Positions 8,714-37,352 of a stretch of DNA of 64,000 bases are shown here, in pieces. Source of the stretch: Gemmata palustris. GTDB lineage: Bacteria > Planctomycetota > Planctomycetia > Gemmatales > Gemmataceae. Under the pieces are notes generated by a model. That model was not told the origin of the DNA and made no database searches. It saw only the letters and a list, made by a program, of their open reading frames with translations. The stretch covers positions 62,001-126,000 of the forward strand of contig NZ_JAGKQQ010000002.1 in NCBI RefSeq assembly GCF_017939745.1, written 5' to 3'. Position 1 is the first letter of the stretch. Every line of letters begins with the position of its first letter. The translations under genes and the position numbers were made by a program.

Positions 8714-9742
8714 ATGCTCTTTTCTTCCTCGAAATGCCCGCTGCCCGCGCTCGTGGAGTGGTGCCGGGCGCTCCGGTTCAGCCTGAGTGCGGGCCTCGAC
8801 CCGGTAAAGATCTTCAAACAACAAGCGAAGTCCGGGCCGCGCCCGCTGCGGGCACTCGCCGGCGAGTTCGCGAAAAAACTCGCGGCCGGCGAATCACTGG
8901 AAGACGCCCTCGAACCGCACCGCGACACGTTCCCGCCGCTGTTCGTGGAACTCGTCGCCGTGGGCGAACAGACCGGGCGCCTCGAAGACACGTTCCGGGA
9001 ACTCGAACAGTATTACGCGGCGGCGCTGACGACCCAGCGCAACTTCCGCTCACAGATGGCGTACCCCGCGATCCAGTACGTCGCGGCCGTGCTCATCATC
9101 AGCGGGCTCATCTTCATTCTGGGGATGCTCGGCATCAAGATGGACCCGACCGGGCTGGGACTCACGGGCACCCAGGGAGCGCTCACGTTCCTGCTCTGCG
9201 GCGCGGCCCTCGTGGGCGGGATTCTGTTCGTGCTGAAGATGGCCGCCGACAACGTGCGGTTCCGCGCGAAGCTCGAGGGCACGTTCCTGATGGTGCCCGG
9301 CTGGGGGCCGGCGCTGCTCGCGTTCGCGGTGCTCCGGTTCGCGGTGGCGCTGCGGATGTGTGCCGAGGCCGGGCTGCGGGCCGAAACGACCCTGCACTAC
9401 TGCTTCCGCGCCACGTGCAACTCGCGCTTCCAGGCGGGCGAGGCGCGGGCCGTGGAGGTGGCCAAGCGCGGCGGCGAACTGGTCGAATCCATCGACGAGT
9501 CCCGAGCGCCGTTCCCGAGAGAGTTCCGCGAAACGCTCGTGACCGGCGAGGAAACGGGCAACATGACCGAGGTGATGGAGCGCCTCGCGGACCGCTACCG
9601 CGAGGACGCGGAGCGCAAGATGAAGGCCGCAGCGCAGGTCACCGGGTACGCTATTTACGCGCTGGTCGCGCTGATGATTATCTTCTTCATCTTCCGCATC
9701 GCCAGTGTGTACCTGGGCGCGCTCAACGGCGCCGCGGGGTAG
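8714..9742 (+). CDS. Type II secretion/type IV pilus F-type inner-membrane protein
   Basis: 342 residues with the two T2SF modules of the GspF/PilC family. Module one has LRFSLSAGLDPVKIF, a short ESLEDALE helix and LVAVGEQTGRLEDTF. Module two has RFAVALRMCAEAGLRAETTL and LVTGEETGNMTEVMERLADRY. Three hydrophobic segments lie near residues 115-135, 160-180 and at the C-terminus (IYALVALMIIFFIFRI). GspF/PilC proteins are platform proteins around which the pilin or pseudopilin assembles. No ATPase, pilin or secretin gene is adjacent, so it is an orphan component here. A large inverted-repeat element follows immediately. Confidence 0.85.
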   Translation: MLFSSSKCPLPALVEWCRALRFSLSAGLDPVKIFKQQAKSGPRPLRALAGEFAKKLAAGESLEDALEPHRDTFPPLFVELVAVGEQTGRLEDTFRELEQYYAAALTTQRNFRSQMAYPAIQYVAAVLIISGLIFILGMLGIKMDPTGLGLTGTQGALTFLLCGAALVGGILFVLKMAADNVRFRAKLEGTFLMVPGWGPALLAFAVLRFAVALRMCAEAGLRAETTLHYCFRATCNSRFQAGEARAVEVAKRGGELVESIDESRAPFPREFRETLVTGEETGNMTEVMERLADRYREDAERKMKAAAQVTGYAIYALVALMIIFFIFRIASVYLGALNGAAG

Positions 9743-9758
9743 GAAAGCAGGGAATCAC

Positions 9759-10225
9759 AAATGCGCCGCGGATAACGCCGAGAACGCGGATCAAGACAAG
9801 AAGGCAGAGGACAGAAGTCAGAAGTCAGAGGGCAGAGATCAGAGGACATTGTTTTGTAGCCCCGGATGGGGGCGACCGATCGTAGCCAGGGGTGAAGCGA
9901 GCAACGCGAACGCAACCCCTGGTTGCACGCGAAGAAGAACGAAGCCCCGGATGGGGCGACAGAGCCAACCAGAGAGGCTCTGTCGCCCCATCCGGGGCTT
10001 GACCGCATTTCGTAGACGAATCCAGGGAATTGTTCGAGCGCCAGGGTTGCGCGGGAGTCCGCCAGGGGTTGCGCTGCGCCTTCGGCTCTGCTCCACCCCT
10101 GGCTACGATCGGTCGCCCCATCCGGGGCTACAAAACTACCTACGCCCGCTCCCAACCTTCTGCCCTCTGTCCTCTGTTCTTTTTTGTCCTGATCCGCGTG
10201 ATCTGCGTTATCTGTGGCGCATTTT
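9759..10225. repeat. 467-bp imperfect inverted-repeat element
   Basis: The sequence folds back on itself almost from end to end. Outer arms read aatgcgccgcggataacg on the left and its near complement (cgttatctgtggcgcatt) on the right, next to gaacgcggatcaagaca/tgatccgcgtgatctgcg. Inner arms (from 9855 and ending about 10133) are close complements carrying gtagccccggatgggg and gatcgtagccaggggtg. A further hairpin centred near 9975 (gagccaaccagagaggctc) lies within. There is no gene inside. The core motif recurs at 13650-13735. Confidence 0.8.
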
Positions 10226-10246
10226 CAGCGTTTCAGTGTCCCGGCA

Positions 10247-11974
10247 TTACTCTGCACCGTCGCGTGGGGGCACGTGATACTTCGGCACCACGACAGCCAC
10301 GTCGCACAGGCCCCACGGCGTCGCGCCCGCGAACTTGTCGAGGATGGACGACTTCCCCTTCCGCTTGAGTGTGCTCGTCTCCACGATCTCCAGGCTCGGC
10401 GGGAGCGTGTTCTTGAAGCCCTGCAACGAGTCGTGGTGCGTAAACAGGATCACCGTGCGCGGGCGGTGGTGGCAGTCCACCATGAGTTGGTTCACGCTCT
10501 TGGTGCGCACGTTGCGCATGTCGGACCGGTCGTGGTAGAACGCGAGCGAGTCACAGTTCCGCGGAAAACACACCACCGCCACGTCGGGGTCGCTCACGAA
10601 CCGCTCGACCAGTTCCGGCCGGCCGAACGGTGACCGCTCGCGCGCGTACCACGGCACCGCGACGTAGTGCGCCATCATCACGAGCGCGGCCATTCCCCCG
10701 ATCAGCGCCCGCGTGCGGAACGCGGTGTTCCACTTCGTGCGCGCCACGAACTCTCCGACCGCGAGACACAAGAACGGGTACGCCGGGAGCACGTAAGTCG
10801 GTAACTTGCTGCCCGAGCAACTGAAGAAGAACACGCACCACGCCCCGGTGAGCAGCCAGAACCCGCCCGCGGACGAGCGGTTCGCGCTGTCCCCGGGCGC
10901 GGAGCGGATCAGGCGCCAGAAGTAGGCCGCGAGCAGGAACGTACCGGGCAAGAGCCCGCCGAGCAAAATGGGGACGTAGTACCAGATGGGTTGCAGGTGG
11001 TCGAACGGCTGCAGGAACCGCATCACGTTGTGTTCCCAGAAGAAGTACTTCAGGAACTGCGGCTCGCGGAAGTAAATCGCGACGTACCACGGCAGGTTCA
11101 CCGCGAACACCACGCCGAAGAACGCGAGGTACCAGTACCACCGAACGACCGCGGCCGGCGAACGGCCGGCGTGAGCCGGCTGGTGAGAAACTCGCACACC
11201 GGACGGCTCCGATTGCGTGTGCGCGGCTTGTGCATCGAGTGACAGCGTAGTCACACCAGCCGGCTCACGCCGGCCGTTCGCCAAAAACGCTCCGCCCCCC
11301 CGCATCAGGAACCCGTACACCCACAGCGGCACGAACAGCAGCACTTCCGAGATCGGCCCTTTCGTGAGGAACCCCAACCCCGACGCGACCGCGGCCGCGA
11401 CCCACCACCCGCGCTTCAGCGTACCGGTGCGCACGGCCTCGAAGCCGCACAGCACGGACGTCGTTACGCACAGTACCAGAAGGCCGTCGAGCAAGAGCAG
11501 TCGCGCGACGCTCACGAATCCCGGCGCGACAGAAAGTAGCATCGCGGCCCAGAACGCACTTCGCTCGCCCACGCTCCGGCGCCCGATCAGGTACACCGCG
11601 AGAATCGTGAAGTGAACACACAGCGCGGGCACGAGCCGTGCGGATTCCGGCGACACGCCGAACGCGCGATAGCTCAGCGCCGTCAGCCAGTACATCAGCG
11701 GCGGCTTATCGAGGTACGGCTCGCCCTGGAGTGTGGGCACGACCCACGAACCGTTTTGCAGCATTTCCTTGGGGATCTGCGCGTACCGGCCCTCGTCGGG
11801 CTCCAACAGGTGGAACCCGCGTGTGGGGTACAGAAGTACCGCGGGCAGGAGCAGAACCAACAGCAGCGAAAGTCGGCGCACCCGCGTATCGGTGTCCGCC
11901 GCGCCGGGGAACAAAATGTCTGTGAAAAGCAGCCGACACCACCCGACTACGCCCCGGTGCTCTCGCTCGTCCAT
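10247..11974 (-). CDS. GT39-type membrane glycosyltransferase (ArnT-like)
   Basis: 575 residues with about 11-12 hydrophobic segments. The ArnT/PMT-type signature LEPDEGRYAQIPKEM (acidic pair in the first periplasmic loop) is followed by LDKPPLMYWLTALSYRAFG. Such enzymes transfer a sugar from a polyprenyl-phosphate carrier to lipid or protein acceptors on the outer face of the membrane. A C-terminal soluble part follows. A stretch of about 42 residues in the middle (beginning GRREPAGVTT and ending AGRSPA) is encoded by an in-frame palindromic element and breaks the family pattern. A second GT39 gene lies at 17.7 kb. Confidence 0.82.
   Translation of the reverse strand: MDEREHRGVVGWCRLLFTDILFPGAADTDTRVRRLSLLLVLLLPAVLLYPTRGFHLLEPDEGRYAQIPKEMLQNGSWVVPTLQGEPYLDKPPLMYWLTALSYRAFGVSPESARLVPALCVHFTILAVYLIGRRSVGERSAFWAAMLLSVAPGFVSVARLLLLDGLLVLCVTTSVLCGFEAVRTGTLKRGWWVAAAVASGLGFLTKGPISEVLLFVPLWVYGFLMRGGGAFLANGRREPAGVTTLSLDAQAAHTQSEPSGVRVSHQPAHAGRSPAAVVRWYWYLAFFGVVFAVNLPWYVAIYFREPQFLKYFFWEHNVMRFLQPFDHLQPIWYYVPILLGGLLPGTFLLAAYFWRLIRSAPGDSANRSSAGGFWLLTGAWCVFFFSCSGSKLPTYVLPAYPFLCLAVGEFVARTKWNTAFRTRALIGGMAALVMMAHYVAVPWYARERSPFGRPELVERFVSDPDVAVVCFPRNCDSLAFYHDRSDMRNVRTKSVNQLMVDCHHRPRTVILFTHHDSLQGFKNTLPPSLEIVETSTLKRKGKSSILDKFAGATPWGLCDVAVVVPKYHVPPRDGAE
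11157..11282. repeat. 126-bp palindromic element inside a coding sequence
   Basis: Two perfect 29-bp inverted arms (11157-11185 and 11254-11282, containing gaacggccggcgtgagccgg and its complement) flank a 68-bp centre. The total is exactly 42 codons, so the host frame is kept. The encoded peptide is Arg/Pro/Ala-rich and unlike the membrane protein around it. Confidence 0.85.
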
Positions 11975-33990: not shown

Positions 33991-35598
33991 TTAGTCGCCA
34001 CCGAGACCGCTGGCGAGAGCGCCGTCGGGCGGCTCCAACCCCAGCCCGCGGAGCAATCGTTCGATCTGCGGCCACGCGACCGTTCCGCGGACCGCGCTCG
34101 CACCGGCCCCGGTCACGTCCCCCACGAACCGTACCAGTGCGTCCCGCAACTGGCGCTCGCCCGGGGTCAGCAGCGAATCGAACCGTTCCCCGACCAACAG
34201 GTGTGCCGCGTCCCGCGTCCGGGACACCAAATAATCGAGAAACACTTCCAACCGCCGGGCGGCTTCGGGCACCGCGAAGTTCGCCGCGGCCTCCGGCGCA
34301 TCGGCCATGCGCACGCGCCGAATGTCTTGTTCCCAGAGCACCTCGGCCAGACCGCCCGCGCCGAGCGAGAGGGCCGTTCCGAAGTGCCCCGGCGGTCGGT
34401 GCTCGCCGCGCAAGCGCCGCACCGCGTCCACGATCCGGTGGAAGTTGTCATCGGTCATCGAGAAGCCGACGAACAGCACGTGCCGCGTGACCAGGAACGC
34501 TTGAACCATCCCGCTGAGAGCCGGGAGCTGCTCGTCGTAGCGCGTGTAACTGGACCGCGTGAGCACGACCCGATCCGGGTCCGAGAGGCACCCGTGCATC
34601 TTCAGGAGCCAGCGCCGGCCGTCCGGCTTGATCGCGCCGGGCAGCACCGACAACCCGTCGGGGTCGGACAGCGCCCAGGCGTCCTCGAACAGTTGGTCGT
34701 AATTGGTGGTGATCGCTTCGCGAACCGGGAGCGCGGCGAGCAGCGCGTGCGCGAGGGCGTAGTGCCGGCGCGGGCCGAGTGCGGCCGCAACCGTTCGGCC
34801 GATCGTACCCCCGCGGGCCTTGAGGCGCCGTTCGACCACGGTCGCCTGGTCGAGCGCGTTCCGCAACTCGGCGAGTGCCGCCCGCTCGTCGCGCGACATT
34901 TCGGCGTGAACCGCGAGTTCATCGAGCAACCCGCCCCAACCGGGAAGGCCGGCCGCGATGCTCACCCCCGCACCGAGAAACAGCGCGAGTTCGCCCCGCA
35001 GAGCGTGCGCGGCCAATCGCTGCGCCTCGGTTCTCAGCGGCTCCGTCAGATCGGTCGGCCAGTCGGCCCGGCGCACGCGCTCGGCCTGCGCTGCCGCGTG
35101 ACTGGCCGCGTCCCAACAGACGAGCGCGACATCGAATTCGCGCCCACCGGGAAAGGTCCGCGCGGCAAACGCTTCCAACTCCGGGAGAAGCGCTTGCACG
35201 ATCTCCCCCGCTCGCGCAGCCCCTCCACCGAGTCCCGTACCGACGACCGGCAGCGCGAGCAGCGACCGGGCGCGGCCGAATAGTGGGGGTAGGTCGTTCG
35301 TGGTGATTTCGTTCGCGGCGGCGTTGAGGAAATCGGCCGCACCGGTGATGTACCAGGACACCGGTTGCCCGCCGCGGCCGATCCAACCCAACCACGGTTG
35401 CGGGCGGTTCGGCGCGGGGGCGATCAGCGGTTGCGCGCGGCTCTGATCCTCGGCGAACCGGCGCCCCTCGCGCGGGCCGGTGTAATCGGGCAGGAACCAC
35501 TCGTGCCCCGGCCGCGCGCTGCGACTGCACGGAATCAGCCACGCATCGCAAGCGAGGCGCCGAAGGTCACCGCGAACGATGAACACGTGACCCGGCAT
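33991..35598 (-). CDS. Macro-like domain fused to a defence-type SIR2 domain
   Basis: 535 residues from the ATG at 35598, which has gcggaggg seven bases upstream; a GTG 24 bases earlier lacks this. The N-terminal 160 residues look like a macro (ADP-ribose-binding) domain: VFIVRGDLRRLACDAWLIPCS and LALPVVGTGLGGGAARAGEIVQ (shown in part). A SIR2 domain of the SIR2_2 type follows: FLGAGVSIAAGLPGW, ITTNYDQLFEDA (catalytic-type Asn), KMHGCLSDPDRVVLT (His) and VLFVGFSMTDDNF. The C-terminal 150 residues are helical. SIR2 domains of this type hydrolyse NAD+ in anti-phage systems; macro domains bind or remove ADP-ribose. It is 40 bp downstream of an SDR gene on the same strand. Role in defence or NAD signalling is inference. 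Confidence 0.78.
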   Translation of the reverse strand: MPGHVFIVRGDLRRLACDAWLIPCSRSARPGHEWFLPDYTGPREGRRFAEDQSRAQPLIAPAPNRPQPWLGWIGRGGQPVSWYITGAADFLNAAANEITTNDLPPLFGRARSLLALPVVGTGLGGGAARAGEIVQALLPELEAFAARTFPGGREFDVALVCWDAASHAAAQAERVRRADWPTDLTEPLRTEAQRLAAHALRGELALFLGAGVSIAAGLPGWGGLLDELAVHAEMSRDERAALAELRNALDQATVVERRLKARGGTIGRTVAAALGPRRHYALAHALLAALPVREAITTNYDQLFEDAWALSDPDGLSVLPGAIKPDGRRWLLKMHGCLSDPDRVVLTRSSYTRYDEQLPALSGMVQAFLVTRHVLFVGFSMTDDNFHRIVDAVRRLRGEHRPPGHFGTALSLGAGGLAEVLWEQDIRRVRMADAPEAAANFAVPEAARRLEVFLDYLVSRTRDAAHLLVGERFDSLLTPGERQLRDALVRFVGDVTGAGASAVRGTVAWPQIERLLRGLGLEPPDGALASGLGGD

Positions 35599-35638
35599 CG
35601 GTGGCCCTCCGCGAATCCGCACGCCCTCGACCCAAAAA

Positions 35639-36616: not shown

Positions 36617-37165
36617 TCACGGGGCGTCGCCAAGTTCTCCGGCGCGGTTGCCGGGAACTGGGTAATTGAGGTAACCCCGGCGACCGGCTCCCGAACGCCT
36701 CGGCCGCCTGGGGTCACGAACGTGGCGAGATCGGCCGGGCGCCGACAACAGGGCCTCGGCCAGAACGACCCGCCCGCTGAGCACAGTGCGAATGACCCAC
36801 GGCACCTCGTACCCGACTGTAACCCGTCGATGGCACGCGCTCCCAGAGTGGCTTCGCCGGCCCGACGTCGAGCCGGCGAAGGAGGTCGGAGGGTGGCCAA
36901 GCACGGGGTTCGGGCGGATCAGAACTCCAGAGCGTGTGCCCGCGGGTTCCGTGATCCGTGCGAATTGGGCGACGGCTTCCAGGGAGTGCATGCCCGCGAG
37001 TGCGGCGACGACCACGAGGTTCAGAACCACCGGGAGCGGGTACCAGCGCCCCGACGGATCACGCGGGTCGAGAATCGTGGCCAGAACCTCTGCCAGCGAC
37101 AATGCGCTTCCGTACCGGTCCCCGGTATTAAAGAGGGCCGGGGCGAATACCAAGACTTCGCCCAA
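36617..37165 (-). pseudogene. Fused remnants of two transposases
   Basis: The upstream half (from 37165) reads LAEVLATILDPRDPSGRWYP and LVVVAALAGMHSLEAVAQFAR, the N-terminal region of ISAs1/H-repeat transposases; it then shifts frame (a LLRRLDV segment is readable in another frame). The downstream half reads VPWVIRTVLSGRVVLAEALLSA, which matches VLWVIRDVLSGRVVLAKSLLSA in the innermost element of the nest at 58.2 kb. Two unrelated insertion sequences have decayed into one short frame. It lies next to a tRNA gene. Confidence 0.7.
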
Positions 37166-37273: not shown

Positions 37274-37344
37274 TGGGGATTGGTGTAACGGTAGCACGAG
37301 TGACTCTGACTCACTTAGTCTAGGTTCGAATCCTAGATCCCCAA
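37274..37344 (+). tRNA. tRNA-Gln (anticodon CUG)
   Basis: The acceptor stem tggggat pairs with atcccca. The D arm contains gtgtaacggtagcac. The anticodon stem agtga/tcact encloses the 7-nt loop ctctgac, so the anticodon is CTG and reads CAG. The T arm is ctagg-ttcgaat-cctag. The discriminator base is A and CCA is not encoded. The total is 71 nt. Confidence 0.92.
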
Positions 37345-37352
37345 CTCAACAA

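Follow-up and report, generated by a model that had tools for sequence, protein, structure and literature searches.

The planctomycete Gemmata palustris encodes a protein which joins, in one chain, an N-terminal macro domain to a SIR2 domain closest to those of defence proteins, and comparative analyses reveal that this macro-SIR2 fusion is a patchy family spread across planctomycetes and Actinobacteria. Its members combine a macro fold with a SIR2 family match whose catalytic residues are conserved, have lost the usual residues of the macro hydrolases, and in some actinobacterial genomes have neighbours related to defence or to ADP-ribose chemistry. As a description, predicted macro-gated SIR2 NADases suits the family best. 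The original prediction had been made from the letters of the window alone, the window being the whole analysed stretch of 64,000 nucleotides; its observation of a fusion is confirmed, and its interpretation is partly supported.

The gene is one real open frame of the window (Table 1). A longer frame is possible through a GTG at 35622, but translation more likely begins with the ATG at 35598, since the MxGHxF stretch beginning there is common to relatives, G3 and H4 each being kept in 43 of the 44 full-length relatives. The alignment of 44 proteins used here and below is without the partial L009 and L047, L100 and L101 (no clear start according to our codon script), the close Gemmata relatives L002, L005 and L006, and repeat records such as L030, L031, L033, L070 and L096. 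A full-length structure model of the window protein, computed from nine mostly close sequences, has a mean pLDDT of 48.8, and its C-terminal tail is of low confidence.

Table 1. Features of the macro-SIR2 fusion gene, in window positions
Feature	Position	Strand	Basis and remarks
Macro-SIR2 fusion gene	33991..35598	minus	535 aa plus stop; open frame, start common to relatives
Macro domain, residues 1-178	35065..35598	minus	Family profile to macroH2A1.1, model, VIA alignment
Macro loop 1 region, residues 23-34 (PCSRSARPGHEW)	35497..35532	minus	Alignment columns; without the usual catalytic Asn, without GGG
Macro loop 2, residues 117-125 (PVVGTGLGG)	35224..35250	minus	Conserved in alignment; expected diphosphate holder
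SIR2 domain, residues 201-401	34396..34998	minus	Closest PADLOC profile is Thoeris ThsA
Asn299 codon (TTNYD), predicted NADase residue	34702..34704	minus	N in 44/44 aligned relatives
His335 codon (KMHG), predicted NADase residue	34594..34596	minus	H in 44/44 aligned relatives
C-terminal tail, residues 410-535	33994..34371	minus	Without family match; partly conserved, e.g. W422, D455

The N-terminal half of the window protein has a macro fold, as originally predicted, and this is confirmed because the family profile, the fold model, Foldseek and the VIA re-alignment agree. The macro motifs that had been quoted lie where they were said to lie. A Pfam match, the first check suggested for this half, did not materialise: residues 1-192 of the window protein match no Pfam family, PF01661 included, and one of 38 N-terminal halves of relatives reaches PF01661 (E 0.0033). 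A profile built from these 38 halves finds macroH2A1.1 in the PDB with an E-value of 2.3e-9, together with other macro domains. The AlphaFold2 model of the macro half, computed from the alignment of the same 38 halves, has a mean pLDDT of 91.9, and a Foldseek search with it gives 86 matches at E 0.001 or better, the best at E 2.0e-6. The best 50 of these 86 are mostly named macro domains or YmdB, the remaining ones among the 50 being macroH2A carrier fusions, designed hydrolases and a few others; those not named macro we take to be macro-fold proteins. Re-alignment of the model with VIA gives a Z-score of 16.8 (rmsd 2.9 over 156 residues) against E. coli YmdB and 15.5 against macroH2A1.1.

Conservation within this half is high at D18 (43/44), W34 (42/44) and W69 (41/44), as well as in loop 2, where G124 and G125 are kept in 41 and 40 of the 44 proteins; loop 2 of macro domains is presumably the part which holds the diphosphate. 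Position 25, matched to the usual hydrolytic Asn through the macroH2A alignment (PTN in macroH2A), is occupied by D in 30 proteins, S in 9, T in 3 and Y in 2, and by N in none, and GGG is present in the loop 1 stretch of no row. An Asn is present in the divergent row L010, but one position beyond position 25. Since loop 2 is kept while the hydrolase Asn and the Gly-rich loop 1 are lost, the simplest reading is that the domain would bind an ADP-ribose-like ligand without cleaving it by the usual chemistry. The proposed processing of ADP-ribosylated targets is thus weakened by the residues missing in all 44 aligned relatives, and sensing or binding appears to fit better. Asp at position 11, the usual adenine contact of macro domains, is replaced by Arg in 24 of the 44 proteins; since it is present in only 19, some branches may have a different ligand specificity or have lost it.

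The second half matches Pfam SIR2_2 (PF13289) over residues 294-406 with an E-value of 2.6e-29, the only Pfam family there, and the PADLOC profile of ThsA aligns with residues 201-401 (E 8.2e-33). Chains named ThsA, DSR2 and KomC are among the solved structures nearest in sequence, which cover approximately residues 194-406. All 44 full-length proteins are invariant at N299, D301, K333, H335, G378, S380 and D383, and for N299, D301, H335, G378 and D383 this invariance includes the divergent rows L010 and L048. The claim of a SIR2_2 domain with intact catalytic residues is therefore borne out, N299 and H335 being, from their role in ThsA, the predicted catalytic Asn and His. From these matches we infer that the SIR2 half is a defence-type NADase, its activity being predicted. 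No SLOG domain was found in the window protein by Pfam at E 1, and its best ThsA match stops at position 216 of the 478 of the profile.

Homologues with the same fusion, whose existence the original prediction had left to a search, were found in the genus of the window, in other planctomycetes and in Actinobacteria. The fusion is present in 9 of 19 genomes of the genus (one copy is cut by a contig end), and in a planctomycete sample of 294 genomes three others (G134, G217 and G161) match into the N-terminal half. A scan of genome contigs adds fusions in Williamsia, Cellulomonas, Klenkia and Krasilnikoviella. In an actinobacterial sample 6 of 395 genomes carry it besides the centre genome, and at the family level it was found in 25 of 150 genomes from the family to which Cellulomonas aerilata belongs (hereafter the Cellulomonas family), in 8 of 121 of the family of G744 and in 1 of 121 of the family of G443, namely G443 itself. 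The macro profile alone, run at E 1e-6 on 396 actinobacterial genomes with at most eight candidates scored per genome, finds seven genomes, each at the fusion site; among these candidates of the 396 genomes, this macro subfamily lies ahead of SIR2 in every case.

Three of the 25 copies of the Cellulomonas family are not intact at full length, a sequencing error being possible; the copies of G352 and G849 match in two frames and that of G827 in its C-terminal half only. The macro and SIR2 halves of the former two lie in different frames at one place (L092 and L094 in G352; L091 and L095 in G849), which may be explained by a frameshift or an error of sequencing, or else by a two-gene version. 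Stops are marked within the matches of several copies of the family; decay of the G857 and G829 copies was considered and rejected, the marked stop being the last codon of the gene itself, so that both are intact. Two planctomycete genes, L010 (953-2638, minus strand) and L048 (1246-3036, minus strand), display a more divergent N-terminal half before the same type of SIR2: they start with GDI or ADI and lack the PTD motif, and L048 also lacks the MxGH start of the family. They possibly constitute a second macro-SIR2 branch. A search of viral contigs with two peptide patterns retrieved no relative of the fusion, and a viral origin, or carriage by viruses or plasmids, was set aside, since among the matches listed the plasmid and phage records match the SIR2 part only and none covers at least 80% of the query.

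The fusion locus of the window is not a defence island and is surrounded by ordinary genes of housekeeping type. The six neighbours scanned encode a UDP-glucose dehydrogenase, a protein kinase, an exo/endonuclease-phosphatase, a short-chain dehydrogenase (SDR), a transposase fragment and an RND pump; the SDR, phosphatase, kinase and UDP-glucose dehydrogenase genes flank the fusion gene and the pump is further off. Neither an ADP-ribosylglycohydrolase nor a TIR protein is present among these six. The transposase remnants, in which the original prediction saw the usual surroundings of defence genes, come down to one fragment (36617-37165, minus strand; DDE_Tnp_1_assoc, E 1.3e-8) between the SDR gene and a tRNA-Gln (37274-37345). 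The order SDR, fusion, phosphatase and kinase is common to the window and G010, and several other Gemmata copies have other neighbours. The expected defence neighbourhood was encountered instead around some of the actinobacterial relatives.

These surroundings were compared in 36 fusion regions (30 actinobacterial and 6 planctomycete) and in 20 control regions, taken from the same contigs at approximately 140 kb or more from the fusion. Genes were called with our own codon script, which left L136, L137 and L153 almost without genes, and PADLOC was applied to 223 fusion-side proteins, with 34 of the 36 regions represented, and to 127 of the 165 control proteins, 19 of the 20 control regions being listed and the 38 dropped proteins including all those of L157. 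NERD-UvrD genes are present in 8 of the 36 fusion regions and in none of the 20 controls, five of these eight regions being close relatives which share further neighbours. In the related regions L106, L107, L108, L111 and L112, a protein starting with LDRSGSMQ (vWA-like by eye, without Pfam match), a DUF6308 protein and NERD-UvrD recur near the fusion. PADLOC identified a complete ZacABC set in a region of the Cellulomonas family (L115, 928-7122, minus strand; E 0, 8.5e-172 and 1.4e-129), adjoining the fusion and divergent from it, a type IV restriction enzyme near the Williamsia fusion (L122) and an Orf5/HEC-06 protein near that of L105; Pfam adds an McrBC component in L035 and DndB in L104. 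The bulk PADLOC measure separates fusion regions from controls only modestly, with 74 families having matches among 111 fusion-side proteins and 66 among the other 112, versus 54 among 127 control proteins, and among the first 25 families listed the second fusion-side batch consists mostly of PD-T4-6 and other kinase-like models. In L119 an Hsp70-like protein (9268-11454, minus strand), whose C-terminal part matches a Zc3h12a-like RNase (E 2.5e-6), adjoins the macro-SIR2 gene.

No conserved operon partner emerged from an all-against-all comparison of the neighbours in the 36 regions, in which no family is present in more than eight. The SDR, which adjoins the Gemmata fusion and those of three actinobacteria, was rejected as a partner: identities are 34-36%, the gene order is opposite, and the blastp matches of the window dehydrogenase in 6 of 36 fusion regions versus 2 of 20 controls point to chance. 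ARPP-1 does not hold as a general partner either, being present in 10 of the 24 fusion genomes searched and near the fusion in two (G443 and G349). At E 1e-10 it was not retrieved from any of 150 genomes in the Cellulomonas family, a weak absence as the search controls also gave no match.

ADP-ribose chemistry is nevertheless conspicuous at a few loci. A cluster in L128 (4083-15937) contains NERD-UvrD, the macro-SIR2 fusion, an ADP-ribosylglycohydrolase which carries a weak dual-specificity phosphatase match, ARPP-1, an NrtR-type Nudix protein and an RNase H-AAA helicase, and the Klenkia fusion region (L032) displays glycohydrolase, ARPP-1 and Nudix matches. ADP-ribosylglycohydrolases were thus searched, regardless of their place, in 36 of the 38 actinobacterial fusion genomes (G827 and G849 left out), giving 35 genes in 24 of the 36. 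In six of the 36 genomes, distributed among Klenkia (G349), G443, G744 and the Cellulomonas family, one lies no farther than 8 kb from the fusion, the distances being 0.5, 0.6, 2.9, 3.2, 5.6 and 6.2 kb, and the other 30 have none within this range. An even scatter would give 0.15 such cases (post hoc Poisson P 1.5e-8). This P-value overstates the case, because the idea came from the same loci, where twelve query proteins were tried, and the test is therefore not independent of them, three of the six near cases (G352, whose copy is split between frames, G781 and G812) belong to one family, and defence genes cluster; the link could reflect shared defence islands. On the same contig but 28-73 kb from the fusion, a glycohydrolase was also noted in G851, G795, G885, G823, G650, G1107 and G1098. 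The glycohydrolase link observed in some Actinobacteria is a new and testable element of the family. It recalls the gene clusters centred on ADP-ribosylglycohydrolase (ARG) for which a role against the ADP-ribosylation of host molecules by phages was predicted in 2022 (PMC9503650, section 3.8), and a few actinobacterial fusion loci carry parts of such systems (the glycohydrolase, the weak phosphatase match, ARPP-1, the NrtR-type Nudix protein and the helicase). In that section, however, Macro and NADAR are variable extras and no macro-SIR2 effector is described, and the window fusion was not seen in such a cluster, considering its six scanned neighbours.

On balance, we find it probable that the fusion is a sensor and an effector in one protein, a SIR2 NADase gated by its macro domain and set off by an ADP-ribose signal, and we infer for it NADase activity, ligand binding, gating and an anti-phage role. 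The macro domain would bind ADP-ribose, or a molecule bearing it, without cleavage; binding would turn on the SIR2 NADase, probably through a changed oligomeric state, and the removal of NAD+ would stop the growth of the infected or damaged cell. The ligand would most likely be ADP-ribose or ADP-ribosylated host molecules arising in infection, a TIR-made signal being a less likely source. Precedents are given by the SIR2-SLOG and TM-macro forms of the Thoeris effector ThsA, whose sensors bind ADP-ribose-type ligands according to the relevant passages of PMC11204291. The SIR2-SLOG form shares with the fusion the SIR2 class, the catalytic motifs and a nucleotide-sensing module placed on a SIR2 NADase (predicted as such here), but the fusion has an N-terminal macro domain instead of SLOG. 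The TM-macro form, in those same passages, uses a macro domain as the nucleotide sensor of the effector and is in this respect similar; its effector part consists of membrane segments and not of SIR2, and no ThsA model is found among the Pfam families matched by the 38 N-terminal halves.

More specifically, the fusion could be a guard over ADP-ribosylation, whose macro domain would read an ADP-ribose mark set by a phage on proteins or nucleic acids of the host, or the ADP-ribose freed by a glycohydrolase, and whose SIR2 domain would destroy the NAD+ needed by phage enzymes. We consider this possible though rather unlikely; if true, it would represent direct effector-triggered immunity to phage ADP-ribosyltransferases. 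It is unlikely, too, that the macro domain is a product-feedback or safety module, binding the ADP-ribose made by SIR2 to tune or hold the enzyme while the trigger, for instance a phage protein, comes from elsewhere. ADP-ribose is the product of SIR2-type NADases, DSR2 is described as triggered by a phage tail tube protein, and the lack of a partner gene recurring family-wide would also suit such a module, but the actinobacterial glycohydrolase link suggests that ADP-ribose chemistry lies upstream of the effector too.

A writer and eraser in one chain, in which SIR2 would ADP-ribosylate a target and the macro domain remove or read the mark, is quite improbable. Class M sirtuins (SirTM) resemble the macro-SIR2 family in linking a sirtuin to a macrodomain, through adjoining genes in bacteria and through fusion in the fungal Mfs1 (PMC4518038, in the parts which describe them). 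The original prediction was accordingly right in assigning the known sirtuin-macro pairs to another sirtuin class and incomplete in calling them separate genes. In this other class the catalytic His is replaced (PMC4518038, same parts), whereas it is invariant in the 44 proteins aligned here; furthermore, the usual macro catalytic position is without Asn in all of these, and the SIR2 part has its closest matches among defence SIR2 proteins. A Thoeris variant, with the macro domain receiving the signal of a TIR protein encoded elsewhere in the genome, is still less probable. Thoeris does employ SIR2 effectors and macro sensors (PMC11204291, same passages as above), and 9 of the 21 fusion genomes searched have some TIR_2 domain, but the other 12, including the genome of the window itself, have no TIR_2 match at E 1e-5, the nearest TIR on a shared contig is approximately 71 kb off (G013), and ThsB_TIR is present in one of the 21 genomes, on another contig. 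In contrast to both ThsA forms, TIR_2 or ThsB_TIR adjoins the fusion in none of the 21. A role outside defence, as a housekeeping regulator of the NAD or ADP-ribose level, would agree with the ordinary genes around the Gemmata copies and is the least probable, given the patchy presence within one genus and one family and the defence neighbours of some relatives.

The combination of SIR2_2 and Macro is already in print: the legend of Extended Data Fig. 2 of a 2025 study presenting a FAM118 sirtuin tree (PMC12700824) mentions SIR2_2 proteins with an additional Macro domain, and the passages concerned give this mention without function, family extent or neighbourhood. A partial literature search by title and abstract found no functional study of such fusions, nor of a SIR2 effector sensing ADP-ribosylation. 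In the known SIR2 suicide effectors the trigger is either a TIR-made nucleotide, in the case of Thoeris, or a phage protein, in that of DSR2. With a macro domain of its own, a SIR2 effector would form a self-contained circuit taking ADP-ribose chemistry itself as its input, and the macro-SIR2 family would provide a single-chain model for the gating of an enzyme by a macro domain. Host counter-measures to viral ADP-ribosylation are described as hardly understood (PMC9503650, section 3.8), and the glycohydrolase link makes one concrete answer to this question testable.
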